A stretch of 64,000 nucleotides of DNA from assembly GCF_018531445.1 (NCBI RefSeq), contig NZ_JAHDTH010000011.1:1-64000 (forward strand). Reading direction: 5' to 3'. The position numbers were made by a program, and so were the translations under genes. A model generated the notes under the pieces. That model made no database searches, was not told the origin of the DNA, and worked only from the letters and a program-made list of their open reading frames with translations. Below, piece by piece: positions 4,121-24,198 of the stretch (position 1 is its first letter; each line of letters starts with the position of its first letter). This DNA comes from Pseudonocardia lacus (GTDB taxonomy: Bacteria > Actinomycetota > Actinomycetes > Mycobacteriales > Pseudonocardiaceae).

Positions 4121-4717
4121 TCAGCCCCGGATCGCCTCCACCGCGCTGACCACCGCCATGACCACCAGCAGCCCGGCCGCCACCCGCAGGACCCAGCGCT
4201 GCGGCACCACCCGCCGCAGCCGGTTCCCCCCGAACACCGCCAGCGCCGACACCGCCCACAGCGCCAGCAGCGCTGCGACCCCGACGGCGGCGGGATCCTC
4301 GTACCGGGCCGCGAGCGTCGCCACGATGATCTGCGTCGGGTCCCCCAGCTCGGAGAGCAGGGTGACCCCGAAGCACAACGCCACCACCCGCCAGGGCGAG
4401 GTCGCGGGGGCCGTCGCCGCGACGTCGTCATCGTCGTCGTCCTCCCGCAGCAGCAGCACGGCGCTGACGAGGAAGACGACCGCGAGCACCGCGGCCACCG
4501 GCCGTTCGGGGAGCAGCGCGACGAGGCTCCCGGCCGCCACCGCGGCGACCACCTGCACGAGGAACGCCGCGAAGACGCCGACCAGCACCAGCCGGGCCGG
4601 GTACCGGCTGGCGAGGACGAGGGTCACCAGCCCGCTGGTGTCGGCGAGTTCGGCGAGGGCGACGATGCCGAAGGTGAGGGCGATGGTGACCACGGAGTCG
4701 ACCACCGGTTCGACCAC
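4121..4717 (-). CDS. GDT1/UPF0016 (TMEM165) family cation transporter
   Basis: This 198-residue membrane protein shows the duplicated architecture of the UPF0016 family, with about six to seven hydrophobic helices and an acidic linker (six consecutive Asp at residues 93-98) between the halves. The family hallmark E-x-G-D-[KR]-[TS] is present but divergent: ELADTS (residues 23-28) in the first half and ELGDPT (123-128) in the second, so the basic residue is missing in both. Known members move Mn2+ or Ca2+ across membranes. It starts at GTG 4717, 18 bases after the CaCA-type exchanger, and is the last gene of the pqq transcription unit. The motif changes make cation specificity uncertain. Confidence 0.82.
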   Translation of the reverse strand: MVEPVVDSVVTIALTFGIVALAELADTSGLVTLVLASRYPARLVLVGVFAAFLVQVVAAVAAGSLVALLPERPVAAVLAVVFLVSAVLLLREDDDDDDVAATAPATSPWRVVALCFGVTLLSELGDPTQIIVATLAARYEDPAAVGVAALLALWAVSALAVFGGNRLRRVVPQRWVLRVAAGLLVVMAVVSAVEAIRG

Positions 4718-4735: not shown

Positions 4736-5872
4736 CTAGTCGTCATCGTCCGGCGCGCCGGGCACCGCGGGGGCCTCGACACCCGGCTGCTGTGCGCCCT
4801 CGTCCGCGCCGGGGGCGTCGTCGACGGGAACGAGGCCGAACACCGAGAAGCTGATCACCCAGTAGGCGACGTACCCGGCCAGCAGGACCGCCCCGTGCCA
4901 GCGCCGCAGGTGCCCGGTGAACAGCGCGTACGCGGCGAACCCGTTGATCACGACGAGGGCCGGCAGGTGCCAGCTGAAGATGTCCGGGGTGATCAGCAGC
5001 GCGCCGCCGACCAGGGCGATGATGCCGACCTTCGCGGTCACCGAGAACACGACGCTGCCGATGATGTTGCCGACGCCGATCGCGGGCGCTCCCCGCCGGG
5101 ACGGCTCGACGGTCAGGAAGAGGTCCTCCAGCGACAGCACCACGGTCGCGATCGTCGCGCCGAAGACCGTGCCGCTGATCGCGAACTCCTCCAGGATGCC
5201 CTCGGTGCCCTCCGACATGGCCCAGGCGCCCACGACGAGCCCGACCAGCGCGAGCAGCGCCAGCAGGAGCAGTGCCCACCCGGGGCGGTCGGTGCCCTTC
5301 GCCCGGCCCAGGTCGCCGGTCTCGTAGAGCACCGCGCCGCCGGTGCGCCCGCCGCCGCCCGGGCCGGTGCCCGCCCCGACGAGCTCGGGGCTCTCGACCG
5401 ACTCGCGCACCTCCGCGCCGCCGAACGTGGGCACCGCCCGCCGCGACTCCCGGTAGGCGACGTAGGCGATGAACAGCACGAACAGCCCGATGAGCACGAT
5501 CCCGGAGACGACCCCCAGCCCGCCGAGCAGCGCCGGCCCGACCAGCACCAGGGGGGCCACGGCGAAGATCGCGATGTAGTCGTTGGGGATCTCCACCCGG
5601 CTGGGGGCGATGAGGGCGCTGAGCGCGAGGACGAGGCCGGTCAGCGAGATGACGGTGCCGAAGACGACGCCGAGGGCGACGTCCTCGAGGCCCTCCAGGT
5701 TGAGCACCACGCCGAACGCGAGGTCGTCGAACTCGATGCCGGTGAACAGGATGGCCAGCAGGAACAGCGAGACGGCCAGGCCGCGGGCCGCGCCGACCAG
5801 GTAGGCGATCAGCTTCTCCGCGCTGTAGACGAGCAGCGCCGTGCCGAGGGCGAAGACGATGATGGACGTCAT
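4736..5872 (-). CDS. Sodium/calcium exchanger (CaCA) family-like cation antiporter
   Basis: The 378-residue protein has about ten to eleven hydrophobic helices in two halves joined by a hydrophilic loop (about residues 155-205) and ends in an acidic tail with four terminal Asp residues. Two inverted alpha-repeat-like segments carry acidic residues inside membrane helices: FTGIEFDDLAFG (E47, D49, D50) and TVVLSLEDLFLTVEP, the latter followed by GVGNIIGSVVFSV. This is the CaCA pattern of cation/proton or sodium exchange. The ATG at 5872 has GGGGGAG upstream. It begins 35 bases after pqqE and is followed 18 bases later by the GDT1-like gene, so it belongs to the pqq transcription unit. Substrate ion is inferred only at the level of divalent or larger cation. 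Confidence 0.82.
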   Translation of the reverse strand: MTSIIVFALGTALLVYSAEKLIAYLVGAARGLAVSLFLLAILFTGIEFDDLAFGVVLNLEGLEDVALGVVFGTVISLTGLVLALSALIAPSRVEIPNDYIAIFAVAPLVLVGPALLGGLGVVSGIVLIGLFVLFIAYVAYRESRRAVPTFGGAEVRESVESPELVGAGTGPGGGGRTGGAVLYETGDLGRAKGTDRPGWALLLLALLALVGLVVGAWAMSEGTEGILEEFAISGTVFGATIATVVLSLEDLFLTVEPSRRGAPAIGVGNIIGSVVFSVTAKVGIIALVGGALLITPDIFSWHLPALVVINGFAAYALFTGHLRRWHGAVLLAGYVAYWVISFSVFGLVPVDDAPGADEGAQQPGVEAPAVPGAPDDDD

Positions 5873-5907
5873 CCGGGTTGCTCCCCCTTGAGCGGACGGG
5901 CGGACGG

Positions 5908-7041
5908 TCAGTCGGGCACCCGGACCCGGTGGGGACGGGGGACCAGCGGCGGTTCGTCGACGCGCGCGTCCGCGTTGGCGGCGTCGACCGCCCTGGCGAC
6001 CAGGGCGTGGTCGGGCGAGAGGTGGCACACCGGGTCGGTGCGGGCGGCGTCGCCGGTCAGCTGGAACGCCTGGCAGCGGCAGCCGCCGAAGTCCACCTCG
6101 CGGCGGTCGCAGGTGCGGCACGGGTCGGGCATCCAGCCGGTGCCGCGGAAGGCGGTCATCACCGGGGCCCCGGTCCAGATCCGCTCCAGCGGGTCGACGC
6201 GCACGCTGGCCCGGGGCAGCGGCAGCGACTGGGCCGCCGGGCAGGGCAGCACGTCGCCGTTGGGCGCCACGGTGAGCTGGCGGGCGGCCCAGCCGCCCAT
6301 GCAGGGCTTCGGGTAGCGGCTGTAGTAGTCGGGGACGACGTAGATGACGTCCATGCGGTCGCGCAGCCGCTCGCGGGCGGCCCGCACGACGGCCTCGGCC
6401 GCGACGAGCTGGGCCCGGCTGGGCAGCAGCGCGTCGCGGTTGCGCCAGGCCCAGCCGTAGTACTGGGTGTTGGCCAGCTCGACGCGGTCGGCGCCCAGGT
6501 CGTCGGCCAGCGCGAGCACGTCGGCGACGCGGTCGATGTTCTGCCGGTGCAGCACCACGTTGAGGGTGAGCGGCCAGCCCAGCTCCTTGACCACGCCGGC
6601 GGCCTCGATCTTGCGCCGGAACGACGGGGTGCCGGCGATCCGGTCGGACGCCACGGGCTCGTCGGCCTGGATGCTGACCTGCACGTGGTCCAGGCCGGCC
6701 GCGCGCAGCCGCTCGGCCCTGCTCCGGGACAGCCCGAGCGCGCTGGTCACGAGGTTGGTGTAGAGGCCGAGGTCGTGGGCGGTGGCCACGATGTCGACCA
6801 GGTCGCGGCGCAGCAGCGGCTCCCCGCCGGACAGGTGGCACTGCAGGACGCCCAGGTCGCGGGCCTCGGTCAGCACCCGCTGCCACTCGTGGGTGGCCAG
6901 CTCGTCGGTGTACTCGCCCATGGCGACCGGGTTGGAGCAGTAGGCGCAGGCCAGCGGGCAGCGGTAGGTCAGCTCGGCGAGCAGCCCGAAGGGGCTGTCC
7001 ACGTTGTCCACGTTGTCCATGCTGTCCACGGGGTCAGCCAT
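5908..7041 (-). CDS. pqqE: PqqE, radical SAM enzyme of PQQ biosynthesis
   Basis: PqqE links the glutamate and tyrosine side chains of PqqA by a carbon-carbon bond. The radical SAM cluster motif CPLACAYC (CxxxCxxC) lies near residues 28-35, followed by the SAM-binding HLSGGEPLLR. The C-terminal SPASM region has the auxiliary-cluster cysteines in KPCMGGWA, VLPCPAA, PCRTCDRR and GGCRCQAF. At 377 residues it has the normal family length. The ATG at 7041 overlaps pqqD by 8 bases, which indicates translational coupling; the PqqA chaperone PqqD is therefore made with it. The N-terminus has four tandem 9-base repeats coding VDS-MDN-VDN-VDS. Identity is secure. Confidence 0.97.
   Translation of the reverse strand: MADPVDSMDNVDNVDSPFGLLAELTYRCPLACAYCSNPVAMGEYTDELATHEWQRVLTEARDLGVLQCHLSGGEPLLRRDLVDIVATAHDLGLYTNLVTSALGLSRSRAERLRAAGLDHVQVSIQADEPVASDRIAGTPSFRRKIEAAGVVKELGWPLTLNVVLHRQNIDRVADVLALADDLGADRVELANTQYYGWAWRNRDALLPSRAQLVAAEAVVRAARERLRDRMDVIYVVPDYYSRYPKPCMGGWAARQLTVAPNGDVLPCPAAQSLPLPRASVRVDPLERIWTGAPVMTAFRGTGWMPDPCRTCDRREVDFGGCRCQAFQLTGDAARTDPVCHLSPDHALVARAVDAANADARVDEPPLVPRPHRVRVPD
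6994..7029 (-). repeat. Four tandem 9-bp units within the 5' end of pqqE
   Basis: Units GCTGTCCAC (6994-7002), GTTGTCCAC (7003-7011), GTTGTCCAT (7012-7020) and GCTGTCCAC (7021-7029) follow one another without spacer. They encode the residues just ahead of the radical SAM core. The array is in frame, so copy-number change would lengthen or shorten the N-terminus without breaking the gene. Confidence 0.85.
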
Positions 7042-7315
7042 CGGCGAACTCCACGCAGCGGCGGGCGGCGAGCCGCGTCAGGAACCGCTGCACCTCGCCC
7101 TCGGGGACGCTGTCGTACCGCGCGGTCAGCGCGGTCACGATCTCGGCGACGGTGCGCCGCCCGTCGCAGAGCCCGAGGATGTCGGCGCCGGTTCCGTTGA
7201 GCACGACCACCGTCTCCGGGTGCAGCAGGACGTGGCGCTGCCGGGTGCGGTCGAAGCTGATCCGCACGTGGCGGGCCAGCCGGGGGCGCGCCGCGGCCAG
7301 GTCGACGGCCGTCAC
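7034..7315 (-). CDS. pqqD: PqqD, PqqA-binding peptide chaperone
   Basis: This 93-residue protein is of the PqqD (RRE) family, which binds the PqqA precursor and presents it to PqqE. The conserved signature is visible as [20 protein letters not shown] followed by [14 protein letters not shown], close to the classic PqqD pattern of pEg-x-VxLN and CDGxRTVaEI. It starts at GTG 7315, overlapping the pqqC stop by four bases (GTGA), and its end overlaps the start of pqqE by 8 bases. All three are thus translationally coupled. Confidence 0.95.
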
Positions 7316-8016
7316 CCGGGGTACGCCCGGTCGATGGCGTCCATCAGGCTCCACAGCACGTCGCACTTGAACGAGAGCGCGTCGATGGCGCGCGCCTGCG
7401 ACTCGGCGGTCAGGCAGTGCTCGGTGACGACCTCCAGGGCGTGCTCGCAGTCGCGGGGCGCCTGGTCGAGGCGGGCCCGGAAGTAGGCGAGGCCCCCGGC
7501 GTCGATCCAGGGGTACCAGCGCTCGAACGCGGCCAGCCGCTCGGCCATGAGGTCGGGGGCGAACAGCTCGGTCAGCGAGGACGCCACCGCCTCCACCCAC
7601 GGCCTGGTCCGGGTGAAGGTGACGTAGGCGTCGACGGCGAACCGCACCCCGGGCACCAGGTGCCGGTGGTCGCGGACCTCCTCGCGGGTCAGCCCGGCGG
7701 CCTCGGCGAGGCGCAGCCACGCCTCGATGCCACCCTCGCCGGGCTGCTGGCCGTCGTGGTCGACGATGCGGCGGATCCAGCGGCGGCGGACGTCCGGGTC
7801 GGGGCAGTTGGACAGGATCGCCGCGTCCTTGCGGGGGATGTTCTCCTGGTAGTAGAAGCGGTTGGCGATCCAGCCCCGCAGCTGGTGCGGGCCGAGCCGG
7901 CCGGCGTTCATCCGCACGTGGAACGGGTGCTGGTCGTGGTAGCGCCGCGAATGGGCGCGCAGCGCCTCGACGAAGCCGTCGTCGGTGCGTGCGGTGGTGC
8001 TCGTTCCCGCTGTCAT
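7312..8016 (-). CDS. pqqC: PqqC, pyrroloquinoline-quinone synthase
   Basis: PqqC catalyses the last, cofactor-less oxidation and ring closure that gives PQQ. The 234-residue protein shows the family sequence from [19 protein letters not shown], through [40 protein letters not shown] and [20 protein letters not shown], to [20 protein letters not shown]. Length is typical. The ATG at 8016 is preceded by a GAGGGGC element. It is separated from pqqA by 86 bases that contain a perfect 30-bp palindrome. The stop overlaps pqqD by four bases. No pqqB gene lies between pqqA and pqqC, where it is found in many operons. Confidence 0.97.
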
Positions 8017-8229: not shown

Positions 8230-8286
8230 CTACGCCTCGGGCAGGGCGCTACGCCTCGGGCAGGGCGCTACGCCTCGGGAAGGGCG
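8230..8286 (-). repeat. Triple 19-bp tandem repeat of the dehydrogenase stop region
   Basis: Three copies of a 19-base unit (plus-strand CTACGCCTCGGGCAGGGCG, third copy with one change) start at 8230, 8249 and 8268. The third copy is the real end of the dehydrogenase gene, coding Ala-Leu-Pro-Glu-Ala-stop; the other two repeat this ending with its TAG downstream in shifted frames. It looks like slippage duplication of the gene's 3' end. Confidence 0.9.
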
Positions 8287-9965
8287 AAGACGATCAGGGC
8301 GCTGCCGTGGCCCGCGCCGAGCATCCCGGGCAGGAAGCCCTCGGCCCAGCCGCCCCAGCCGACCGGGACGGCGACGAACTGCCGGCCGTCGACGCTGTAG
8401 GTCGTCGGGCTGCTGTGGTGGCCGCTGCCGCACTGGAACTGCCAGAGCAGCTCGCCGGTGCGCGCGTCGAGCGCGTTGAACTCACCGGACGGTTCGCCGG
8501 CGAACACGAGGTCGCCGCCGGTGGCGAGCACCGACGCGCACATCGGCAGCTCGTTGCGCCAGCGCCACTTCTCCTCGCCCTCGGCGTCGAACGCGCTGAT
8601 CGAGCCGACCATGTCCTCGATGTCGACCTGGACGCCCGCGCCCCAGTAGGGGATGGACTCCTTGAACTCGCGGCGCCGGCGCGTGGCCGTGGCCCCGACG
8701 TCCTGGACCGGCACGTAGAACAGCTCGGTCTTCGGGCTGTAGGCCGCGTGCGTCCACTCCTTGGCGCCGGCCGGGCCCGGGTAGAAGTGGACGGGCACGC
8801 CCTCCTCGTCGGGGTAGACCTTGGCCGTGACCTTGCCGTCGCGGGTGATCGCGCCCCAGGTGATCCGGTCGACGAAGGGCGTGATCCGCACCAGCGAGCC
8901 GTCGGTGCGGTCCAGGACGAAGAAGTAGCCGTTCTTGTCGAAGTGCCCCAGCAGCTTGCGCCCGTCCTTCTCGAACAGGATGCACTCGGCGATGGAGTCG
9001 TAGTCCCACACGTCGTGCGGGGTGCACTGGTAGTGCCAGCGGATCTGCCCGGAGTCGACGTCGACGGCGATGATGCTGTCGGTGTAGAGGTTGTCGCCCT
9101 CGCGCACGCCGCCGTCGAAGTCGGGCGCCGGGTTGCCGGTTCCGACGTAGAGCAGGTTGGTCTCCGCGTCGAACGTGCCGGTGAGCCAGCAGTTCGCGCC
9201 GCCGCGGGCCCAGGCCTCACCGTCGGAGGGCCAGGTCTCCGAGCCGGGTTCGCCGGGCTTGGGGACCGTGTAGCAGCGCCACTGGTGCTCGCCGCTGTCG
9301 ATGTCGAACGCGTCGAGGTGCCCGCGCACCCCGAACTCCCCGCCGGAGCTGCCCACGATCACCAGGTTCTTGACCACGAGCGGCGCTACCGTGGCGCTTT
9401 CCCCGGCCCGGACGTCGCCGTAGGTCTTGTCCCAGACCCGCTTGCCGGTGGTCGCGTCGAGCGCGAGCACGTGGGCGTTGGCGGTGACGAAGAAGACGTT
9501 GTTCTGGGCCACGGCGACGCCGCGGTTGACGTTGCCGCAGCACAGCGACACGTCGAAGGGCACGGCGTGCTTGTAGCGCCAGATCTCGGTGCCGGTCTTC
9601 GCGTCCAGGGCCCACACCCAGCCGTCCCAGCCGGCGACGAACATGACGCCGTCGACGACGATGGGCGCGGCCTCGAAGGAGTAGGTCGAGGCGCCGGCGA
9701 TGATGCCGCTGGAGCCTGCCTGGAAGACCCAGGCGGGCAGCAGGCGCTTGACGTTCTCGGTGTTGATCTGGTCCAGCGGGCTGTAGCGCTGCCCGTCGTA
9801 GGTGCCGTAGTAGGTGAGCCAGTTCTCCGGCTCGGACCGGGCGTTGAGGATGCGCTCGTAGTTGACGCTCTCGACCACCGGCGGGGCGAGTTCGTTGCCC
9901 GGGAGCTTGCCGCTGAGCTGTCCCTGGTCGATGGCCTCGCCTGCGTCGACGTACTCGACGGTCAT
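8268..9965 (-). CDS. PQQ-dependent alcohol dehydrogenase, XoxF/PedH-like (predicted lanthanide type), without signal peptide
   Basis: The 565-residue protein is an eight-bladed propeller quinoprotein. Seen motifs are YYGTYDGQRYSPLDQIN (about 52-68), the vicinal disulfide C142-C143 in LCCGNVNRG, metal ligands E210 (GGEFG) and N278 (GTGNPAP), and the catalytic loop HDVWDYDSI with D321 as catalytic base and D323 two residues later. In the family the extra Asp at this position marks lanthanide-dependent enzymes (XoxF, PedH), whereas calcium MxaF has Ala. The start ATG 9965 has GGAGGAG upstream and an in-frame TAG 15 bases before, so no longer N-terminus is possible. The N-terminus (MTVEYVDAGEAIDQ) is acidic and no signal peptide exists, although characterised relatives are periplasmic. 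It is 12 bases downstream of the cupredoxin-like gene and directly upstream of pqqA. Confidence 0.93.
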   Translation of the reverse strand: MTVEYVDAGEAIDQGQLSGKLPGNELAPPVVESVNYERILNARSEPENWLTYYGTYDGQRYSPLDQINTENVKRLLPAWVFQAGSSGIIAGASTYSFEAAPIVVDGVMFVAGWDGWVWALDAKTGTEIWRYKHAVPFDVSLCCGNVNRGVAVAQNNVFFVTANAHVLALDATTGKRVWDKTYGDVRAGESATVAPLVVKNLVIVGSSGGEFGVRGHLDAFDIDSGEHQWRCYTVPKPGEPGSETWPSDGEAWARGGANCWLTGTFDAETNLLYVGTGNPAPDFDGGVREGDNLYTDSIIAVDVDSGQIRWHYQCTPHDVWDYDSIAECILFEKDGRKLLGHFDKNGYFFVLDRTDGSLVRITPFVDRITWGAITRDGKVTAKVYPDEEGVPVHFYPGPAGAKEWTHAAYSPKTELFYVPVQDVGATATRRRREFKESIPYWGAGVQVDIEDMVGSISAFDAEGEEKWRWRNELPMCASVLATGGDLVFAGEPSGEFNALDARTGELLWQFQCGSGHHSSPTTYSVDGRQFVAVPVGWGGWAEGFLPGMLGAGHGSALIVFALPEA

Positions 9966-9977
9966 CGTCTGCTCCTC

Positions 9978-10439
9978 CTAGGGCCGGGGCTGGTCGGGGC
10001 GGTCGAGGCGGGCCTCGGGCGGGACGTCGCCCAGCACGACGATGGCCCCGGTCAGGCCCCGGCCCTCGTCGTTGCCGGTCGGCGAGCTGAACCAGTAGTA
10101 GCCCGGGCCGTCGAGGTTGAGCGTCGCCCGCCCGCGCGAGTGGTTGACCAGCCAGATGAACTTCCGGTCGCCGTTGCTCGGCAGCAGCGCGCAGTGGGTG
10201 TTGAGGTCGTCGTTGATGAGTTCGAGGTCGACGTCGCCGCCGTGCGGCAGGACCAGGATCGCGGGATCCCAGCTCAGCTCGTCGGGCCGGATCCGGATGG
10301 TCGCCGCCATCCGGCCGTCCTCCTTCTCGGTCGCCTGGCCGATGTTGCCGGTACCCAGCATCCGGCCGATCGTGGCCTTGTTCTGCCCGTTCAAGCCGAG
10401 CTTGTCCACCAGGTCCGCCCGTTCCTGCGCGGTCGTCAC
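9978..10439 (-). CDS. Cupredoxin-like PQQ-associated protein without a full copper site
   Basis: The 153-residue product has an N-terminal polar region (about 1-45) and a cupredoxin-type beta-sandwich with VLPHGGDVDLELINDD, NTHCALLP and a C-terminal hairpin GYYWFSSPTGNDEGRGLTGA. In copper cupredoxins this last hairpin holds Cys, His and Met ligands; here Cys is replaced (YYWFSS), no His follows, and Met is Leu, leaving H82/C83 alone. So a normal type 1 copper centre is unlikely. There is no signal peptide. The GTG at 10439 has GAGGAGGTGG 6 bases upstream. It is first in the operon, directly ahead of the PQQ dehydrogenase, and resembles the MSMEG_3727-type PQQ-associated family (recalled name, not checked). 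Role in electron transfer or cofactor loading is inference. Confidence 0.78.
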   Translation of the reverse strand: MTTAQERADLVDKLGLNGQNKATIGRMLGTGNIGQATEKEDGRMAATIRIRPDELSWDPAILVLPHGGDVDLELINDDLNTHCALLPSNGDRKFIWLVNHSRGRATLNLDGPGYYWFSSPTGNDEGRGLTGAIVVLGDVPPEARLDRPDQPRP

Positions 10440-10698: not shown

Positions 10699-12939
10699 CT
10701 ACCGGGCGCGGGGCAGGTCGTAGCGGTCGAGCTCCATCACCCTCGCCCACGCCCGCACGAAGTCGTGCACGAACTTCTCGCCCGCGTCGTCGCTCGCGTA
10801 GACCTCGGCCACGGCCCGCAGCTCGGCGTGCGAACCGAAGACGAGGTCGACGCGGCTGCCCGTCCAGCGCAGCGCCCCGGTGTCGCGGTCGCGGCCCTCG
10901 AACGTCGTCGCCTCCTTCGAGGTCGGCGTCCAGACCGTGGCCATGTCGAGCAGGTTGACGAAGAAGTCGGTGGTCAGCGTGCCGGGCGTGTCGGTGAACA
11001 CGCCCAGGGGCGAACCCCCGGTGTTCGCGCCCAGCACCCGCATGCCGCCCACCAGCACGGTCATCTCGGGCACGCCCAGGCCCAGCAGGTCGGCCCGGTC
11101 GACCAGCAGCCGCTCGGACCGCTCCCCGGCGCCGTTGGCACGGTGGTTGTCGGCACAGTAGTTGCGGAACCCGTCGGCGACCGGCTCCAGCTCGGCGAAG
11201 AAGGCCGCGTCGGTCTGCTCGGCCGTGGCGTCGGTGCGCCCGGGTGTGAAGGGCACCCGGACGTGGTGACCGGCGTCGGCGGCCGCCCGTTCGACGGCGG
11301 CGCACCCGCCGAGCACGATCAGGTCGGCCAGCGAGACCCGCACGTCGTCGTCGCGGGAGCCGTTGAAGGACCGCTGGACGCCCTCCAGCGCGCCCAGCAC
11401 CCTGGCCAGCGCGTCGGGGTCGTTGACCGCCCAGCCGCGCTGGGGCTCCAGGCGCACGCGGGCGCCGTTCGCCCCGCCGCGCCGGTCGCTGGTGCGGAAC
11501 GTCGACGCCGACGCCCACGCGGCGCGGACGAGGTCGGGCACCGGCAGCCCGCAGTCCAGGACCCGCGCCTTCAGCTCGTCGACGTCGGCATCCCCGACGA
11601 GGTCGTGGTCCACGGCGGGGACCGGGTCCTGCCAGATCAGTGCCTCGCCGGGCACGAGCGGGCCCAGGTAGCGCGGGAGCGGGCCCATGTCGATGTGGGT
11701 GAGCTTGAACCAGGCGCGGGCGAACGCGTCGGCGAGCTGGTCGGGGTGCTCCAGGAACCGCCGGGAGACCACCTCGTAGTCGGGGTCGAACCGCAGCGCG
11801 AGGTCGGTGGTCAGGATGGTCGGGGCGTGCGTCCTGGACGGGTCGTGGGCGTCGGGCACGGTGCCGGCGCCGCCGCCGTCGGCCGGGATCCACTGCCACA
11901 GCCCGGCCGGGCTCAGCTCCAGGTCCCACTCGAAGCCGAACAGGTTCTCCAGGAAGCTGTTGTCCCAGGTCGTCGGGGTGGGCGTCCAGGTGCCCTCCAG
12001 CCCGCTGGCGATGGTGTCGCCGGCCTTGCCGGTGCCGTGGCCGCCCCGCCAGCCCAGGCCCTGCTCCTCCAGCGGGGCGCCCTCGGGCTCGGGGCCCAGG
12101 AAGCGCTCCGGGTCGGCGACGCCGTGGGTCTTGCCGAAGCTGTGCCCGCCGGCGATGAGCGCGACGGTCTCGGTGTCGTCGAACCCCATCCGCCGGAACG
12201 TCTGGCGGATGTCGCGGGCCGAGGTGAGGGGGTCGGGGACGGTGTTGGGGCCCTCCGGGTTGACGTAGATCAGGCCCATCTGGTCGGCGGCGAGCGGGCG
12301 GTGCAGCTCGCGCACGCCGCTGTGGCGCTCATCGCCGAGCCAGGCGCGCTCGGGGCCCCAGTAGAGGTCGTCGCCGCGGTAGACGTCGGCCCGGCCGCCG
12401 CCGAAGCCGAAGGTCCGCAGGCCCATGGACTCCAGGGCGCGGTTGCCGGCGAACACCATCAGGTCGGCCCAGGAGACCGTGCGGCCGTACTTGCGCTTGA
12501 CCGGCCAGAGCAGCCTGCGCGCCTTGTCCAGGTTGCGGTTGTCGGGCCAGCTGTTCAGGGGGGCGAAGCGCAGCATGCCCGCGGCCGGGCCGCCGCGGCC
12601 GTCGGCGACGCGGTAGGTCCCCGCGCAATGCCACACCATCCGCACGATCAGCGGCCCGTAGTGCCCGAAGTCGGCCGGCCACCACGGCTGGGAGGTCGTC
12701 AGGACCTCGTCGACGTCGCGGGCCAGCGCGTCGAGGTCGACGGTCAGGAACTCCGCGGCGTAGTCGAAGTCCGGGCCCATCGGGTCGGCCGCGCCCGGGT
12801 CGGCGCGCAGGGCGCCCAGGTCGAGCCGGTCGGGCCACCAGTCGTGCTCGGCCGAGGCGCGGGCGGGGCGGGTGCGGGGCTGGGCCGGGGCGGGCAGGCC
12901 CAGGCCGCCCCCGCTGGCCTTGTCCGTCGCGTCAGGCAC
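10699..12939 (-). CDS. katG: KatG, bifunctional catalase-peroxidase
   Basis: KatG removes hydrogen peroxide and has peroxidase activity with a single heme. The 746-residue sequence is full length with both halves. Distal residues R100, W103 and H104 occur in [11 protein letters not shown], the covalent adduct partners W103, Y225 (LIYVNPEGP) and M251 (RRMGFDD) are all present, and the proximal H266 is in [15 protein letters not shown] replaces the common WHSAG. The GTG start at 12939 has AGAGGAG upstream. It follows the GAF-LytTR regulator gene by 12 bases, so the two form one unit, and it precedes the PQQ operon on the same strand, which may matter if that oxidation system makes peroxide. Confidence 0.97.
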
Positions 12940-12951
12940 GGGACTCCTCTC

Positions 12952-14352
12952 TCAGATGCCCAGGGCGCGGCGCACGGCGGGCGCATTGCGCCGCGACACC
13001 GGCACCATCCCGCCCGCCGGCTCGTCCATGACCAGCGACAGCTCGCCCTTCACCCCGCGCTCGACCTCCCGGACCCGGGCCAGGTTGACCACGTACTGGC
13101 GGTGCACCCGCAGGAAGCCGGCGCCGGCCAGCTCGCCGTCGAGCTTGTCCAGGCTCGCCGACGCCGACCGCAACCGCCCCTGGTCGGTGAACAGCCACAC
13201 GTCGTTGCCCTCCGCCTCGGCGTAGCAGACCTCCGGCAGGTGCAGCAGCACCATCCGGTTGTCGCGCACCGCGACCACCCGGTGCTGCGGCGACCTGGGG
13301 CTCGCCGGCGCGTCGGGCTGGGACAGCTGCGCCCCGTCGGTCGTGCCGAACCACACCAGGTTGCCGATCAGGTGCCCGGAGGAGAAGACGGGCCGGATGC
13401 TGATCGAGGTCGGTTCGGCGGCGAGGTGGGTGAAGACCTGCGTCGAGCCGACCCAGTCGGGGTCGCGGGCCGCCTGCCGGGTGGCGTAGCGGGCGGCCCC
13501 GATCAGCTCCGGCAGCCCCGCGTTCCACCGCACCGTCGGGTCGACCGCGGGGGTGGACGCCGGCACGCCCATGAGCACGCTCGCCGTGTCGTCGGCGATC
13601 ACCACCTTGCCGGCGGTGTCCAGCGCGGCGACCGGGCAGCTGGAGCGCGCCCTGGCCTGGGTGAAGGACGCGACCAGCTCCGCGCCGCTGTTGCGGGCGC
13701 GCGTGCGCAGCAGGCACTGGGTCTTGGTGGCCGCGTTGGCCAGCCAGCCGACCGCGGCCGCCGGGAGCTGGCTGCGCCAGCAGGAGATGTTCAGGACCGC
13801 GATCGGCTCCTTGGTGACCACGTCGCGCACCGCGATGCCCGCGCAGGCCCAGCTGTGGAACGCCCGGCACCAGTGCTCCGCGCCCCGGATCAGCACCGGG
13901 CCGTGCGCCTCCAGCGCCGTGCCCATGCCGTTCGTCCCGGCCGCGCTCTCCGACCAGCAGAACCAGGGCGCCAGGTTCGCGCCCGACGCCTTGGCCAGGG
14001 TGGCGTCGTCGCCCCACTCGGCCAGGATGCGGCCGGTGGAGTCGGTGACGGTGACGACGCCGGCGAGGGCGCGCACCTCCTGCGCCACGGCGGCGGCGCG
14101 GTAGCCCAGCTCGGCGAAGACGACGTCGTGCTCGGGGGTGTGGTCGATCTCCGCGACGGCGATCGGGGCCCCGCTCAGGTGCGGGTCGACCCGGTAGCGC
14201 TCCCGACAGCGGTGCCAGGAGATCGCCACCACCGGCCGCACCCCCGGGACCTGGTCGTCGCCCTGCACGAACCGCTCCCACGCCGCCAGCACGGAGCTCC
14301 TGCCCCGGCCGTGGACCGCCGCCGTGGGTTCACGCCGTTGTACACCCGTCAT
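12952..14352 (-). CDS. GAF domain and LytTR DNA-binding transcriptional regulator
   Basis: The product (466 residues from ATG 14352) has an N-terminal part like that of AcoR-type activators: VVAISWHRCRERYRVDPH then a GAF-like sensor with WGDDATLAKASGANLAPWFC, SAAGTNGMGTAL and GAEHWCRAFHSWACAGIAV. Instead of a sigma-54 ATPase it ends in a LytTR domain (about 360-466; KLDGELAGAGFLRVHRQYVV and VKGELSLVMDEPAGGMVPVS). Cysteine-rich GAF domains of this group often sense small molecules or redox state. The gene is directly upstream of katG, which it likely controls. A longer start at 14427 is possible; 14352 was taken because AGAGGCGG lies upstream and the extension is arginine-rich and unlike the family. 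Confidence 0.82.
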   Translation of the reverse strand: MTGVQRREPTAAVHGRGRSSVLAAWERFVQGDDQVPGVRPVVAISWHRCRERYRVDPHLSGAPIAVAEIDHTPEHDVVFAELGYRAAAVAQEVRALAGVVTVTDSTGRILAEWGDDATLAKASGANLAPWFCWSESAAGTNGMGTALEAHGPVLIRGAEHWCRAFHSWACAGIAVRDVVTKEPIAVLNISCWRSQLPAAAVGWLANAATKTQCLLRTRARNSGAELVASFTQARARSSCPVAALDTAGKVVIADDTASVLMGVPASTPAVDPTVRWNAGLPELIGAARYATRQAARDPDWVGSTQVFTHLAAEPTSISIRPVFSSGHLIGNLVWFGTTDGAQLSQPDAPASPRSPQHRVVAVRDNRMVLLHLPEVCYAEAEGNDVWLFTDQGRLRSASASLDKLDGELAGAGFLRVHRQYVVNLARVREVERGVKGELSLVMDEPAGGMVPVSRRNAPAVRRALGI

Positions 14353-14563
14353 GGTGGAGAACCGCCTCTGGCCCATCCCGAACGCCGGTCGGCGTGCGCG
14401 CGATCCGCGTCGGACGCCGCTGGTCACAGCCCGCCGGTGGGCGGGCTGGCACCGGGTCGCGTGTGTTCTGCTGCATCACCCGTACCGGGCTGTGTCTCAG
14501 TCCGGTTCCGCCACCCTAGGAAAGATCCGGCGCGCTGTGCACCCCTATCCCGGGAGGAGTGGA

Positions 14564-19050: not shown

Positions 19051-22000
19051 TCAGGTCTGCCCGGTCAGGCCGGCGAGCGCGAGCGCGCGGGCGACCGGTC
19101 CGGTGGTGTCGTGGTCGAGGGTCAGGGCGCGCCCGCTCTCGCGGGCGCGGGCCAGCAACTCCAGGACCAGCCCGATGCCGGCGCTGGGCAGGTAGGTGGT
19201 GGCGCGCAGGTCGAGCACGAGCGGGGTGCCCGGGTCGGCGGTGTCGACCTCGTGCAGCAGTTGCTCGCGCAGCGCGCCGATGGTGGCGAGGTCGATGCCG
19301 TCGTGCAGGGCGAGCCGCAGCCCACCGGGTTCGCGGTGCACGCGCAGGGTCGCCGCGCTGGGCTCGGCCCGCGGTGCGGGCGGGGGCACCGCGGGCCCGG
19401 CCCGGTCTAGCGGCGGCGGGCCGAGGGTGAACGCCACGGTGGTGCCGGCGTCCGGGCCGCTGTGGTCGATCGAGACGTCGCGCCCGAGCGACCGGATGAC
19501 GTCGAGGCCGCGGCCCCGGTAGCCGCGGTCCGCCGGCGGGGGCCGCCAGCGGCCGTGGTCGGTGACGGTGGCCCGGACGGCGCCGTCGGCGCGGAACCGC
19601 AGCGAGAAGTCGAGGTCGCCGGGCCCGCCGTCGCGGTAGGCGTGCTCCACGGCGTTGGCGAGGGCCTCGCCCAGGGCCAGCTGCAGGTCCTCGACGTGGT
19701 CGGGGTGCAGCCCGGTGGCGCCCGCCCACTCCTCGACGGTGCGCCGGATGCCGGTGAGCAGGTCGGGCTGCGCCGGGTGGTGGGCGTGCAGGGCGGGTGG
19801 GAGGTGGCGGGCGGCGACGACGGCGATGTCGTCGTGGCCGAGCCCCTGCGGGACGAGCTGGTCGAGCACCGACGTGGCCAGCTGGTCGGGGCTGACGCCG
19901 TGCAGCGGGCGGGCGGTGCCGGCGAGGCGGGCGATGCCGTCGTCGATGACCTCGCCGCGGCGCTCGACGAGCCCGTCGGTGTAGAGCAGGACGGTGTCGC
20001 CGGGGGCGAACTCGCGCGTCGCCGACCGGTACAGCTGCGGGGTCCGCTCGGCCGTACCGCCGGGGCCCGCCGTGTAGGCGCCCAGCAGCGGGCCGGTGGT
20101 GCCCAGGACGGTGACCGCGCCGTCGTGGCCGAGCAGCAGCGGCGGCGGGTGCCCGGCGCCCGCCCACCGGATCCGCCCGGCGTCGGTGTCGATGACCAGG
20201 CAGACCGCGGTCGACCCGCGCGCCCCGGGCACCCGCGCGGTGTAGTCGTTGAGCCTGGTCAGGGCCTGGGCGGGGTCGGCGTCGGGGCCGAGCATGGTCA
20301 GGATGGCGGCCAGGCCGGAGCGCAGCTGCCCCATCACCGCCGCGGCGGGCGCGCCCTGCCCGACGACGTCGCCGACGACCACGGCCACCCGGTGCGGGGC
20401 CAGCACCAGCACGTCGTACCAGTCGCCGCCGGCCTGCACCCCGGCCACGCCGGGCAGGTAGCGGGTGGCCAGCGCGAGGTGCTCCAGCGGGGGCGGGGCG
20501 GTGGGCAGCAGGCTGCGCTGCAGGGTGTCGGCGAGCCGGGCGCGGGCGTCGGCGAGCGCGGCCCGCTCGAACGCCTGCGCGGCCTGGGCGGCCAGGGTGG
20601 CCGCGAAGCTGCGTTCGTCGTCGGGGAACTCGCGCGGGGTGGTGAACGCGAGTGCGAGCACGCCGACCGTGCGGTCGGCGTGGCGCAGCGGCACCGCGGC
20701 GCCGGCCCGGACCGGGTCGTCGCCGACGGCGACGCCGTCGGGGTGGTGGCGCAGCACCTGCGCGGGCTCGCCCCGCCACACCGGCCGCCCGGTGCGGGCC
20801 GCCTCGGCGGCGATGGTGGCGGAGTCGGTGTCCAGGACGGCGTAGCGGCCGGCGGGGAAGCCGGTGAGGCCGTCGTGGTGGACGAGCTCGAGCCGCGAGG
20901 GCTGGTCGGCGCGCGGCACGTAGATCCCGATCCCGGCCGCCTGCATGCCGTCGCGGACGGCGGCGGCCAGCGCGGCGGCGGCCTGGGGCACCGTGGCCGC
21001 GGCGGCGAGCGCCGTGGCGGCGGTGTTGAGCTGGTGCTCGCGCTGGGCGACCCGCTCGGACTCCAGCGCGACCGCGATCCGGCGGCCCAGCTCGTCGACC
21101 AGTTCGACGTCGAGCCGGTCGAACCGCCCTGTCGGCCCGTCGGCGTCCACCGCCGTGCGCGGGTGGGCGACCACGAGCGCGCCCACCAGGCGGCCCAGCA
21201 CGGTCAGCGGGGCCAGCAGGGCGGCGCCCAGGTCCGGGTGCGCCCGGTCCGCCCGGTCGGCGCGGTCGTCGTCGAGCGCCGCGGGCAGCACCACGGTCGG
21301 CGCGGGATCGAGTACGAGGGCCCCGCCCCGCAGGTGGGCGTCGCGCAGGCCCGCCGGGACGAGGAACGGCGCCGGCGCCAGCATCGCCGTGGCGAGCTCC
21401 GGGCGATCGGGGTGCGCGGCGGCGAGCGGGTGCAGGTGGCCGTCCGGGCCGACGCGGGCGACCACGACGACGTCGCCGAACACCGGAGCGGCCAGGTCGA
21501 CGATCTTCTGCAGCCGCGCCCGCAGCCGGGCAGCCGAGCCGTCCGGGGCGCTGAGCAGCCGGCCGGCCTCGGCCAGCAGTCGGTCGTGGCTGGCCGTGCG
21601 GTGGGCGGTGGTGACGTCGCGGGCGACGCCGATCACCATGGGCGCCGCATCGGGCCGGTCGGGGTCGGGCAGCGTGGCCGCGGAGGTCTCCACCCACAGC
21701 TGGCGGCCGTCGCGGTGGCGCATGGGGAGCACGTGCCGGCCCCGGCCGCCGGCCTGCACCTCGGCCAGCGCCGCGGCGACCCGGGCGTGGCCGTCGGGGT
21801 CGGTGGTCCGGTCCGGCCACCAGGGGTGCGGCGGCGGGTAGGGCAGGCCGTCGTGGCCGTAGCCGAGCAGGTCGTGGAATCCGTCGTTGACCTGGACGAC
21901 CCGCCCGGCGCCGTCGACGACGAACAGGCCGTCCTGCAGCGCGCTCAGCAGCGTCCCGCGCCAGGCCGCCTCCCGCTGGCGCAGCCGGGACAGCGCCAGC

Positions 22001-24198
22001 GTCGAGCGGACCCTGGCCAGCAGCTCGGCGGCGCTGAACGGCTTGACCAGGTAGTCGTCCGCGCCCGCGGCCAGCCCCTCGACGACGGCGTCCTGCCCGG
22101 CGCGGGCGGAGAGCACGATCACCGGGACCCCGGCGGTGGCCGGCGCCGCGCGCAGCGCGGCCACCAGGGCGAACCCGTCGAGGTCCGGCATCATCACGTC
22201 CGTGATGACCAGGTCGGGCGGGTCCTCGCGGGCCGCGGCGAGCGCCGCGGCACCGTCGTTCACGACCCGCAGCGCGTAGCTGCCGGACAGCAGCCGCGCC
22301 AGGTACTCGCGCATGTCGGCGTTGTCGTCGGCGATCAGCAACCGAGGCGGGGGACCGGTCGCCCCGGCGGCCGGCTCGACCGGCAGGGCCGGGTCGGTGG
22401 GCGCGTCCATCCAGCGCAGCGCCTCGGCGACGAACGACTCGGTGACCGACGACCCGCCCGCGTCCCCGGCCCTGGCCGGCTCGGTGTTGCCGAGCTGGTC
22501 GGTGGGCAGGTGGGCGGAGCCCAGCGGGAGCCGGACGGTGAAGGTGCTGCCCACGTCGACCGCCGAGGCCGCGGTGACCGTGCCGCCGTGCAGCCCGACC
22601 AGGTCGCGCACCAGCGCCAGGCCGATGCCGGAGCCCTCGGCCGACCGGCCCCGGGCCCCGCGGACCTGGTGGAACCGGTCGAACAGCAGTTCCAGCTCGG
22701 CGGCGGGCACCCCGATGCCGGTGTCGCTGACCTGCAGCTGCACCTCCGCGCCGGTGCGGTGCAGCCGCACCCCGATCGTGCCGGTGAAGGTGAACTTGAC
22801 CGCGTTCGACAGCAGGTTGGAGACGATCTTCTCCCAGGAGTCGCGGTCGACCCAGACCGGCTCGCCGGGCTCGTCGATCCGCACCTCCAGCCGCAGGCCG
22901 GCGCGCTCGATCGCGGCGCGGAACATCCCGGTCAGCTCCGCGGTGAACGCGGCGAGGTCGGTCGGGACGAACCGGGCCCGCGTCCGCCCGGCCTGCAGCC
23001 GGGAGAAGTCCAGCAGGGTGTTGACCAGCCGCCCCAGCCGCAGCCCGTTGCGGTGCGCGACGTCGATCTCGGCCCGCCAGCGCTCCGGCTCCATCCGCTC
23101 GGCGGCGCGCAGCTGCTCCAGCGGCCCCATGATCAGGGTGAGCGGGGTGCGGAACTCGTGGCTCACGCCGGTGAAGAACTCCGTCTTGGCCCGGTCCAGC
23201 TCGGCGAGGGCCTCCGCCCGGCGCCGCTCCGCCTCGTAGGCGCTCGCGGTGACCAGCGCCGAGCTGATCTGCCCGGCCAGCAGCTCGACGAACCCGCGGT
23301 AGCGCTCGTCGAACGCCCGGAACGGGTTGAGCCCGACCACCAGGAAGCCGCGGGGGCGGTCCTCGCCGGGCGCGCCGGTCAGCGGCGTGAGCACCGCCGC
23401 GGCCGGTGGCAGTGCCCACGCCCCGGTCGGCAGGTCCGCGAACCGCGCGGGCAGGTCGGCCACGACCTCCGCGCGCCCGGCCAGCACCTCGCCCAGCGGC
23501 CAGCCCCGCTCGCCGTCGCCCGCCTCGACCCGCGACGGGGCGGCGGGTGCGCCCGCCTCGATCCCGCTCGCGCACGCCAACCGCGCGCCCCCGGTCTCGT
23601 CGAACAGGTAGGTCACGCTGAACGGCAGGTCGTGGCGGTTGGCCGCCAGCCGCTGCCGCACCGCGGCGAGCACCTCGGCCTCCGTGCGCGCCGCCGCCAG
23701 CGCCGCGGCCAGGTCGCGCAGGGTGGCCATCCGCCGCTCGGACAGCACGCGGTCGGTGTTCTCGGTGACCACGCACAGCATCCCGCTGACCCGGTCGTCC
23801 TCGGCCAGCGGGCTGTAGGAGAACGTGTGGTAGGTCTCCTCGGGGTAGCCGGCGCGCTCCAGGAACAGCAGCAGGTCCTCGTCCCAGGTGGCCCGCCCGG
23901 TCGCCAGCACCGACTCGATCCGCGGACCGATGTCGCCCCAGATCTCCGCCCACACCTCGCGGGCCGACCGCCCCAGCGCCCAGGGGTGCTTCGCGCGCAG
24001 TGTGTCGCGCCGGTAGGCGTCGTTGTAGAACATCGTCAGCTGCGGGCCCCACGCCATCCACATGGGGAACCGCGAGGTCAGCAGGATCCGCACGGCCGCC
24101 GACAGGCCCGCCGGCCAGTCCGCCACCGGCCCCAGCGGGGTCGCCGCCCAGTCGAGCTCGTCGACCCGGCGCGCCAGCTCGCCGGACGGCTCAGGCAT
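19051..24198 (-). CDS. Giant hybrid sensor kinase with SpoIIE phosphatase, RsbW-like kinase and STAS domains
   Basis: The 1,715-residue soluble protein contains, in order: PAS-like sensor (about 10-150), GAF (155-320), HisKA with H347 in SHEFRTPLTL, HATPase (N-box NLLSNAVKFT near 466), receiver domain with phospho-acceptor D667 in ITDVMMPDLDG, a second PAS (about 750-860), two GAF regions (about 880-1040 and 1060-1220), SpoIIE/PP2C phosphatase (GGDWYD at about 1257-1262, GHDDIAVV near 1455), RsbW-like HATPase (LGEALANAVEHAY near 1510) and a C-terminal STAS domain (1615-1715) whose LPSAGIG keeps the Ser aligned with the SpoIIAA phosphosite. It thus joins a two-component phosphorelay to a whole partner-switch. 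No membrane segment is seen, so it acts in the cytoplasm. Target sigma factor is not in the window. The ATG at 24198 starts right before the first PAS. Confidence 0.93.
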   Translation of the reverse strand: MPEPSGELARRVDELDWAATPLGPVADWPAGLSAAVRILLTSRFPMWMAWGPQLTMFYNDAYRRDTLRAKHPWALGRSAREVWAEIWGDIGPRIESVLATGRATWDEDLLLFLERAGYPEETYHTFSYSPLAEDDRVSGMLCVVTENTDRVLSERRMATLRDLAAALAAARTEAEVLAAVRQRLAANRHDLPFSVTYLFDETGGARLACASGIEAGAPAAPSRVEAGDGERGWPLGEVLAGRAEVVADLPARFADLPTGAWALPPAAAVLTPLTGAPGEDRPRGFLVVGLNPFRAFDERYRGFVELLAGQISSALVTASAYEAERRRAEALAELDRAKTEFFTGVSHEFRTPLTLIMGPLEQLRAAERMEPERWRAEIDVAHRNGLRLGRLVNTLLDFSRLQAGRTRARFVPTDLAAFTAELTGMFRAAIERAGLRLEVRIDEPGEPVWVDRDSWEKIVSNLLSNAVKFTFTGTIGVRLHRTGAEVQLQVSDTGIGVPAAELELLFDRFHQVRGARGRSAEGSGIGLALVRDLVGLHGGTVTAASAVDVGSTFTVRLPLGSAHLPTDQLGNTEPARAGDAGGSSVTESFVAEALRWMDAPTDPALPVEPAAGATGPPPRLLIADDNADMREYLARLLSGSYALRVVNDGAAALAAAREDPPDLVITDVMMPDLDGFALVAALRAAPATAGVPVIVLSARAGQDAVVEGLAAGADDYLVKPFSAAELLARVRSTLALSRLRQREAAWRGTLLSALQDGLFVVDGAGRVVQVNDGFHDLLGYGHDGLPYPPPHPWWPDRTTDPDGHARVAAALAEVQAGGRGRHVLPMRHRDGRQLWVETSAATLPDPDRPDAAPMVIGVARDVTTAHRTASHDRLLAEAGRLLSAPDGSAARLRARLQKIVDLAAPVFGDVVVVARVGPDGHLHPLAAAHPDRPELATAMLAPAPFLVPAGLRDAHLRGGALVLDPAPTVVLPAALDDDRADRADRAHPDLGAALLAPLTVLGRLVGALVVAHPRTAVDADGPTGRFDRLDVELVDELGRRIAVALESERVAQREHQLNTAATALAAAATVPQAAAALAAAVRDGMQAAGIGIYVPRADQPSRLELVHHDGLTGFPAGRYAVLDTDSATIAAEAARTGRPVWRGEPAQVLRHHPDGVAVGDDPVRAGAAVPLRHADRTVGVLALAFTTPREFPDDERSFAATLAAQAAQAFERAALADARARLADTLQRSLLPTAPPPLEHLALATRYLPGVAGVQAGGDWYDVLVLAPHRVAVVVGDVVGQGAPAAAVMGQLRSGLAAILTMLGPDADPAQALTRLNDYTARVPGARGSTAVCLVIDTDAGRIRWAGAGHPPPLLLGHDGAVTVLGTTGPLLGAYTAGPGGTAERTPQLYRSATREFAPGDTVLLYTDGLVERRGEVIDDGIARLAGTARPLHGVSPDQLATSVLDQLVPQGLGHDDIAVVAARHLPPALHAHHPAQPDLLTGIRRTVEEWAGATGLHPDHVEDLQLALGEALANAVEHAYRDGGPGDLDFSLRFRADGAVRATVTDHGRWRPPPADRGYRGRGLDVIRSLGRDVSIDHSGPDAGTTVAFTLGPPPLDRAGPAVPPPAPRAEPSAATLRVHREPGGLRLALHDGIDLATIGALREQLLHEVDTADPGTPLVLDLRATTYLPSAGIGLVLELLARARESGRALTLDHDTTGPVARALALAGLTGQT

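Follow-up and report, generated by a model that had tools for sequence, protein, structure and literature searches.

Can a quinoprotein with the metal site of the lanthanide-dependent alcohol dehydrogenases, a family whose known members function outside the cytoplasmic membrane, work inside the cytoplasm of an actinobacterium? This question is raised by a gene for a pyrroloquinoline quinone (PQQ)-dependent dehydrogenase of Pseudonocardia lacus that lies in a stretch of 64,000 nucleotides (positions 1 to 64,000 of contig NZ_JAHDTH010000011.1, assembly GCF_018531445.1; hereinafter, the window). The original prediction, made from the letters of the window, held that the catalytic loop carries the extra, lanthanide-type aspartate (D323), that an in-frame TAG located 15 bases before the ATG leaves no room for an export signal, and that a cytoplasmic enzyme of this kind would need lanthanide (Ln) uptake into the cell and an unusual electron acceptor. 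Comparative analysis of the locus favors, with a probability of about 0.58, a cytosolic quinoprotein module that is complete in itself, combining a lanthanide-type site with a cofactor and metal supply of its own. The gene is not the single oddity for which it had been taken: the module is widespread, and all 80 homologs examined share the site, the lack of a visible signal peptide and the upstream gene.

The product of the gene, a protein of 565 amino acids, scores 629 bits against TIGR03075 (cut-off 480) and contains the WDYD motif at residues 320-323. In phmmer alignments, D321 and D323 fall on both aspartates of the WDFD loop of PedH, whereas 1flg, the Ca-type ethanol dehydrogenase of P. 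aeruginosa, has WDFS at this place. PedE and PedH themselves differ at the extra-aspartate position, with serine in the former and aspartate in the latter (PMC5487730). The homolog set consists of the best 80 of 180 homologous stretches; the homologs are 73-94% identical to the query and nearly all actinobacterial, and the clade spans several lineages of this group, Streptomyces, Amycolatopsis and Pseudonocardia among them. C143, E210, N278, D321 and D323, and likewise C142, are invariant in all 81 rows of the alignment of the query with these homologs. A motif scan recovers WDYD in 79 of the 80 homologous loci, and the alignment locates it in the remaining one (L062) as well. Such conservation implies that the site is more than a chance resemblance, and the lanthanide-type loop of the original prediction is borne out. 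Lanthanide dependence is read from this motif alone, and Ln is somewhat favored as the native metal of the enzyme.

In the phylogenetic tree, the dehydrogenases of this group form a clade of 31 rows (support 100/99) apart from the XoxF and PedH/ExaF clades, its exact joining point being unsure given the long outgroup branches. The source genome contains one TIGR03075 member above the cut-off, and several genomes in a sample of 200 genomes of the same family contain two. In one case of a second copy (L154, G364:C2:126000-129500), the reading frame begins as the LytTR regulator and continues as the C-terminal two thirds of the dehydrogenase; it may be a degenerating duplicate or a join made in assembly. 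A partial quinoprotein with a WDYD loop and 36% identity to the query, its N-terminus unread, was also detected (L108, G220:C144:5843-6622).

The TAG codon, which starts 15 bases before the ATG, terminates the upstream gene, a member of the MSMEG_3727 family (hereinafter, the partner gene) that in the window is by coincidence read in the same frame as the dehydrogenase. In the window, a Shine-Dalgarno-like GGAGG is located between the TAG and the ATG, which identifies this ATG as the likely start; a Shine-Dalgarno-like 4-mer is present at 78 of the 80 homologous loci. All 80 loci have an upstream in-frame stop (at most 10 codons away in 24), and in 68 no alternative start codon lies further than 6 codons ahead of the aligned start. 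An export signal supplied by an alternative upstream start was rejected: among the 12 loci with such starts, none gains a strongly hydrophobic N-terminus, and by eye 11 of the extended frames run across the partner gene, with a slightly longer N-terminus in the last (L046). Translation through the TAG, which would fuse the partner to the dehydrogenase, was rejected because the two genes are in one frame in only 20 of the 80 loci.

N-termini were compared by the highest 12-residue Kyte-Doolittle mean within the first 45 residues, counted from the furthest possible start. The query has no strongly hydrophobic stretch in this region (0.46), the 80 homologs have a maximum of 1.47 and a median of 0.78, and by this measure no signal-like N-terminus is visible in any of the 81 proteins. 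On the same measure, 13 of 14 proteobacterial relatives, which served as controls, reach 1.37-2.64; the value of the 14th (L129, 0.61) is uninformative because its annotated start cuts into the conserved domain. Three further sequences chosen as controls (L125, L131 and L135) were left out of the alignment, being unannotated or having the gene cut at the end of the stretch. Six quinoproteins from the sampled genomes that fall outside the clade possess export-type N-termini, classified by eye as lipoprotein-like (L104, L105), Tat-like (L106, L153), Sec-like (L151) and membrane-anchored (L152), and none of the six stretches fetched around them yields a match to the partner family; three further sequences (L107, L108 and L109) are fragments with unreadable N-termini. 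Thus, the predicted lack of a visible export signal holds for the query and its close homologs alike. The combination of a lanthanide-type site with the lack of a visible signal throughout the clade makes a cytosolic location the best reading, and the dehydrogenase very probably resides in the cytosol.

Two quinoproteins deserve separate mention. Among 53 genomes with the dehydrogenase, one (G433) has no partner gene; it encodes a signal-bearing quinoprotein with 40% identity (L151, G433:C201:36000-43500), perhaps on a contaminant contig. A plasmid of the haloarchaeon Halococcus dombrowskii (NZ_CP095007.1, 15768-17486; L132/L136) encodes a quinoprotein that combines an HDIWDYDS loop, the lysine and the cysteine pair with a long tree branch, nearby ferredoxin genes and no signal-like N-terminus, and that is perhaps a second, separate cytosolic case.

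The partner gene is located upstream of the dehydrogenase in all 80 homologous loci. Its product scores 287 bits against TIGR04339 (cut-off 75) and also lacks a strongly hydrophobic N-terminus (maximum hydropathy of 1.33 in the first 40 residues of 81 sequences). The predicted fold is that of cupredoxins such as pseudoazurin, auracyanin and CupA, from which the partner differs by the lack of most copper ligands. Type 1 blue-copper sites are built from Cys, two His and Met. When the partner was searched as a profile against solved structures, no hit was significant; in the best of them, a weak alignment with pseudoazurin (E 0.29), Ser and Leu stand at the positions of the Cys and Met ligands, there is no C-terminal His, and H82 is the only residue that matches a ligand. 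The partner was therefore rejected as a blue-copper electron acceptor, and no c-type cytochrome gene was found among the 9 neighboring cluster proteins scanned. Analysis of the locus thus identified no unusual electron acceptor of the kind anticipated by the original prediction.

The genes for the synthesis of the cofactor accompany the dehydrogenase. A pqqA match is present in 67 of the 80 loci, in 64 of these at most 400 nucleotides after the dehydrogenase on the same strand, and pqqC, pqqD and pqqE are matched in 61 loci each, the shortfall being due in part to short contigs. Loss of pqqB was rejected, the gene of the source genome being located on another contig (G000:C439:19871-20752, L085; 389 bits); six other loci (L013, L018, L020, L024, L029 and L033) have no room for pqqB between pqqA and pqqC. 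In a sample of 296 genomes, 8 of which encode the dehydrogenase, PqqC scores above the cut-off in 9, namely these 8 and a genome (G161) that encodes a Tat-like quinoprotein (L106); in this sample, PQQ is made almost exclusively for the dehydrogenase.

The module is also accompanied by an MntP-like or a CaCA-like cation transporter, a finding that is new here. In the window, pqqE is followed by a CaCA exchanger gene and then by a gene of the GDT1 family. Among 86 other loci, 67 contain pqqE, 64 of these with at least 1.2 kb of sequence beyond it, and in 52 of the 64 a transporter gene is found within 1.3 kb of pqqE on either strand: MntP-like in 38 and CaCA in 14 (counted at 40% identity or more; the exchanger match in L146 is weak). 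We built models of both transporters (A5, MntP-like; A6, CaCA) from proteins encoded in these loci. In the 296-genome sample, MntP-like matches reach 157-289 bits in 6 genomes, every one of them a carrier of the dehydrogenase (8 in total), and the next best listed score is 85 bits; G098, G109 and G130 contributed to the model, and G184, G237 and G248 are independent of it. The source genome (G000), one of the two remaining carriers, has the exchanger and no MntP-like match.

The association is sharper within the family. Among the 200 same-family genomes, strong MntP-like matches (best 216-289 bits, E limit 1e-10) occur in 21 and strong CaCA matches (best 286-600 bits, E limit 1e-20) in 33, with an overlap of 2; the union of 52 genomes is exactly the set that encodes the partner gene. 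None of the 148 genomes without the partner gene has a strong match to either model among the 17 (MntP-like) and 10 (CaCA) candidates scored per genome, the best listed scores being 67 and 75 bits, respectively. The CaCA matches in G377 and G440 are in two pieces, and that in G345 has one internal stop. In 43 of the 52 genomes, at most 15 kb separate the transporter gene from the partner gene; the distance is 236 kb in one, and in eight the transporter gene is on another contig, where an assembly gap could hide linkage. Replacement of one cation transporter by another, unrelated one points to a metal need of the module. For the Ln uptake expected in the original prediction, the associated cation transporter is a candidate, which might carry another ion or work in the opposite direction.

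The direct observations concern the features of the sequences, the linkage of the genes, their co-occurrence and the absence of a visible signal; from these we infer the following scheme. PqqB-E would convert PqqA to PQQ in the cytosol, where PQQ would be loaded into an alcohol or aldehyde dehydrogenase with a lanthanide-type metal site. The metal would be Ln3+, perhaps with facultative use of Ca2+, and its cytosolic supply or balance would be set by the cation transporter, a CaCA homolog in the window and mostly an MntP-like protein in other lineages. The cupredoxin-fold partner, devoid of a blue-copper site, would most likely be an aid in metal or PQQ loading or a small subunit, and KatG, where present, may clear the H2O2 formed when reduced PQQ meets O2. 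The coordinates of the genes involved are listed in the table.

Features of the window discussed in the text, in order of position
Feature	Coordinates	Strand	Basis and remarks
GDT1-family cation/proton antiporter	4121..4717	-	PF01169; also matched in L079 and, beside the exchanger, in L063
Divergent Na/Ca-exchanger (CaCA) family protein	4736..5896	-	PF01699; among the 200 same-family genomes searched, this subfamily goes with the module
pqqE	5908..7041	-	TIGR02109, 509 bits
pqqD	7034..7312	-	TIGR03859, 81 bits
pqqC	7312..8016	-	TIGR02111, 325 bits
pqqA precursor peptide, 31 aa	8103..8198	-	Open reading frame directly following the dehydrogenase; ExxxY, presumably the pqqA motif
PQQ dehydrogenase, methanol/ethanol family; lanthanide-type site (E210, N278, D321, D323), Cys pair 142-143	8268..9965	-	Profile and alignment; no visible signal peptide
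MSMEG_3727-family partner (TIGR04339/PF23509); predicted cupredoxin fold, most copper ligands missing	9978..10439	-	Profiles; its TAG stop is the in-frame stop
katG catalase-peroxidase	10699..12939	-	TIGR00198, 1054 bits
LytTR regulator, DhaR-like N-terminal part, next to katG	12952..14427	-	PF04397

Outside this cluster, the window encodes a chain of 1715 amino acids (19051-24198, minus strand) with HisKA, HATPase, receiver, PAS, GAF, SpoIIE phosphatase and STAS domains.

Several observations weigh against a cytosolic module with its own metal supply. In exported relatives, the vicinal cysteine pair forms a disulfide, and the cytosol is reducing; the pair is nevertheless invariant in the clade. 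The hydropathy ranges overlap slightly, the clade maximum of 1.47 exceeding the values of 1.37 and 1.43 in two exported controls. The clade proteins contain 8 cysteines on average (range 4-12), compared with 2-5 in the 14 proteobacterial relatives, and the six query cysteines beyond the invariant pair are kept in 61-77 of the 81 rows, but the non-clade quinoproteins L104-L106 have 7 cysteines each, so that a high cysteine count is supporting evidence at most. The transporter association has exceptions as well: 12 of the 64 loci have neither an MntP-like nor a CaCA gene next to pqqE (in two of them, L019 and L080, an MntP-like gene is located elsewhere in the stretch), G065, a dehydrogenase carrier, has no MntP-like match and, at its locus L149, none of the three transporters beside pqqE, and no MntP-like match was found in G290 (75% complete), whose partner gene lies at the edge of a contig. 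Furthermore, scoring covered part of the candidates in each genome (11 or 17 for the MntP-like model, 17 in the family search, and 10 for the exchanger), and the hypergeometric probability of the match with the partner gene is nominal and too small since kinship is ignored. The known members of the MntP and CaCA families are exporters of Mn2+ or Ca2+, and such activity would not by itself supply a cytosolic Ln enzyme. Finally, D-x-D, taken as a direct sign of Ln binding, is shared by a membrane glucose dehydrogenase predicted to be metal-promiscuous, and hence is no proof of Ln dependence (PMC11996626).

This last observation, together with the naming of the neighboring transporter families for Ca2+ and Mn2+, fits an alternative in which the same cytosolic enzyme binds Ca2+ or another divalent cation, D323 is a remnant of an earlier Ln-type ancestor, and the transporter acts on Ca2+ or Mn2+. 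An inherited leftover accords poorly with the invariance of D323 in all 81 rows, and the transporters are divergent: the four MntP-like proteins scanned score 34-60 bits against the MntP model (NF008546), all far below its cut-off of 214. Free cytosolic Ca2+ is usually held very low. We consider this alternative rather unlikely.

KatG suggests another possibility, that the enzyme is an oxidase whose reduced PQQ is reoxidized by O2 in the cytosol, with the neighboring KatG removing the H2O2. A katG match is present in 59 of the 80 loci, directly upstream on the same strand in 50, and in L019, L031, L038 and L050 the gene is located downstream instead, so the linkage outlasts reordering. The LytTR regulator, a candidate sensor of the substrate or of quinone or peroxide, is matched in 61 loci, at 60% identity or more in 50 of these and directly before katG in 45. 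PqqC itself produces H2O2, which could explain the presence of KatG. A search for the peroxidase family (PF00141) in four distant genomes with the dehydrogenase (G098, G109, G237 and G248) yielded no match in any of them; KatG was accordingly rejected as an obligatory part of the module and appears to be accessory. A soluble PQQ glucose dehydrogenase was reported to generate H2O2 and to be stabilized by catalase (PMC11130540), which speaks for the oxidase scheme and would fit a protective role of KatG. Overall, the oxidase scheme is unlikely.

The frequent presence of katG in the same locus, together with the known tie between Mn homeostasis and peroxide stress, would also be compatible with MntP-like and exchanger genes that, in connection with KatG, maintain Mn or Ca balance during oxidative stress and have no role in the metal supply of the dehydrogenase; this appears improbable, given that MntP-like genes go with the module in the same four distant genomes that lack a peroxidase-family match. 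It is quite improbable that the protein is exported nonetheless, whether non-classically or carried by a signal-bearing partner, and functions outside the membrane: the characterized relatives matched by sequence or structure are presumably exported enzymes and the cysteine pair is kept, but neither the dehydrogenase nor any of the 80 partners has a strongly hydrophobic N-terminus, other quinoproteins of the same genome samples do have export-type N-termini, and the six further cysteines are mostly conserved.

The cytosolic module with a lanthanide-type site thus stays the preferred reading. Its most specific form, an actinobacterial cytosolic lanthanoenzyme with dedicated cofactor synthesis, an apo-cupredoxin-fold loader and a dedicated, divergent Ln3+ transporter, is a tentative proposal to which we would give somewhat less than even odds. 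If valid, it would imply rare-earth catalysis inside the gram-positive cytoplasm and a reason for these cells to import rare earths there; a cytosolic member would bring gram-positive bacteria into Ln biology and provide candidates for Ln transport and for metal or PQQ loading. Being compact and found in named, culturable strains, the module is directly testable.

Among the characterized enzymes, PedH of P. putida (PDB 6zcv/6zcw) is the closest to the query by sequence and is tied with XoxF (6dam) by structure. The query has the same metal and PQQ residues as PedH/ExaF, including the extra aspartate, as well as the cysteine pair, but has no visible signal peptide, belongs to a separate clade, is accompanied by partner and transporter genes, and contains Lys344 where all 14 proteobacterial relatives have Arg. 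With XoxF it shares the fold and the site with an aspartate at D+2, and differs in belonging to a separate clade; XoxF is periplasmic and associated with XoxG and XoxJ, and its absence from gram-positive metagenome-assembled genomes has been called unsurprising for this reason (PMC10875860). A xoxF5-like amplicon from an actinobacterial isolate represents, by name, another group (PMC5606694), and a PQQ methanol dehydrogenase gene has been noted in Pseudonocardia (PMC4269115). A gram-negative methylotroph imports Ln to the cytoplasm and stores it there (PMC7391723), and the need for cytoplasmic Ln has been called unknown (PMC11845868). The titles and abstract beginnings among the listed matches of an open-access literature search describe neither a signal-less or cytosolic Ln-type PQQ dehydrogenase nor an associated MntP or CaCA transporter.

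The transporters of the module share their Pfam families with the MntP efflux pump and the CaCA exchangers, yet are divergent and fall below the curated cut-offs: in addition to the MntP scores given above, the exchangers of the window and of L067 score 81 and 76 bits, respectively, against the calcium/sodium antiporter model TIGR00367 (cut-off 180). The MntP-like proteins carry a doubled SLDN-type motif, and repeat 2 of the exchanger has Glu-Asp where NCX_Mj has Pro-Glu. A published counterpart, likened here by description, is the cassette of M. smegmatis, in which MSMEG_3726, the only PQQ-dependent alcohol dehydrogenase of this organism, lies among the pqq genes (PMC3023750) together with the TIGR04339 partner, whose family is named after MSMEG_3727. 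MSMEG_3721-3727 were listed in a study in which the mycofactocin requirement argued against PQQ reactions taking over in ethanol growth under the tested conditions (PMC6529628), and MSMEG_3729 has been called katG (PMC7716392); the excerpts of these descriptions mention neither the metal type nor the missing signal nor a transporter. In comparison with these systems, the module is a new variant within a known enzyme family, with a new, testable metal-transport partner.
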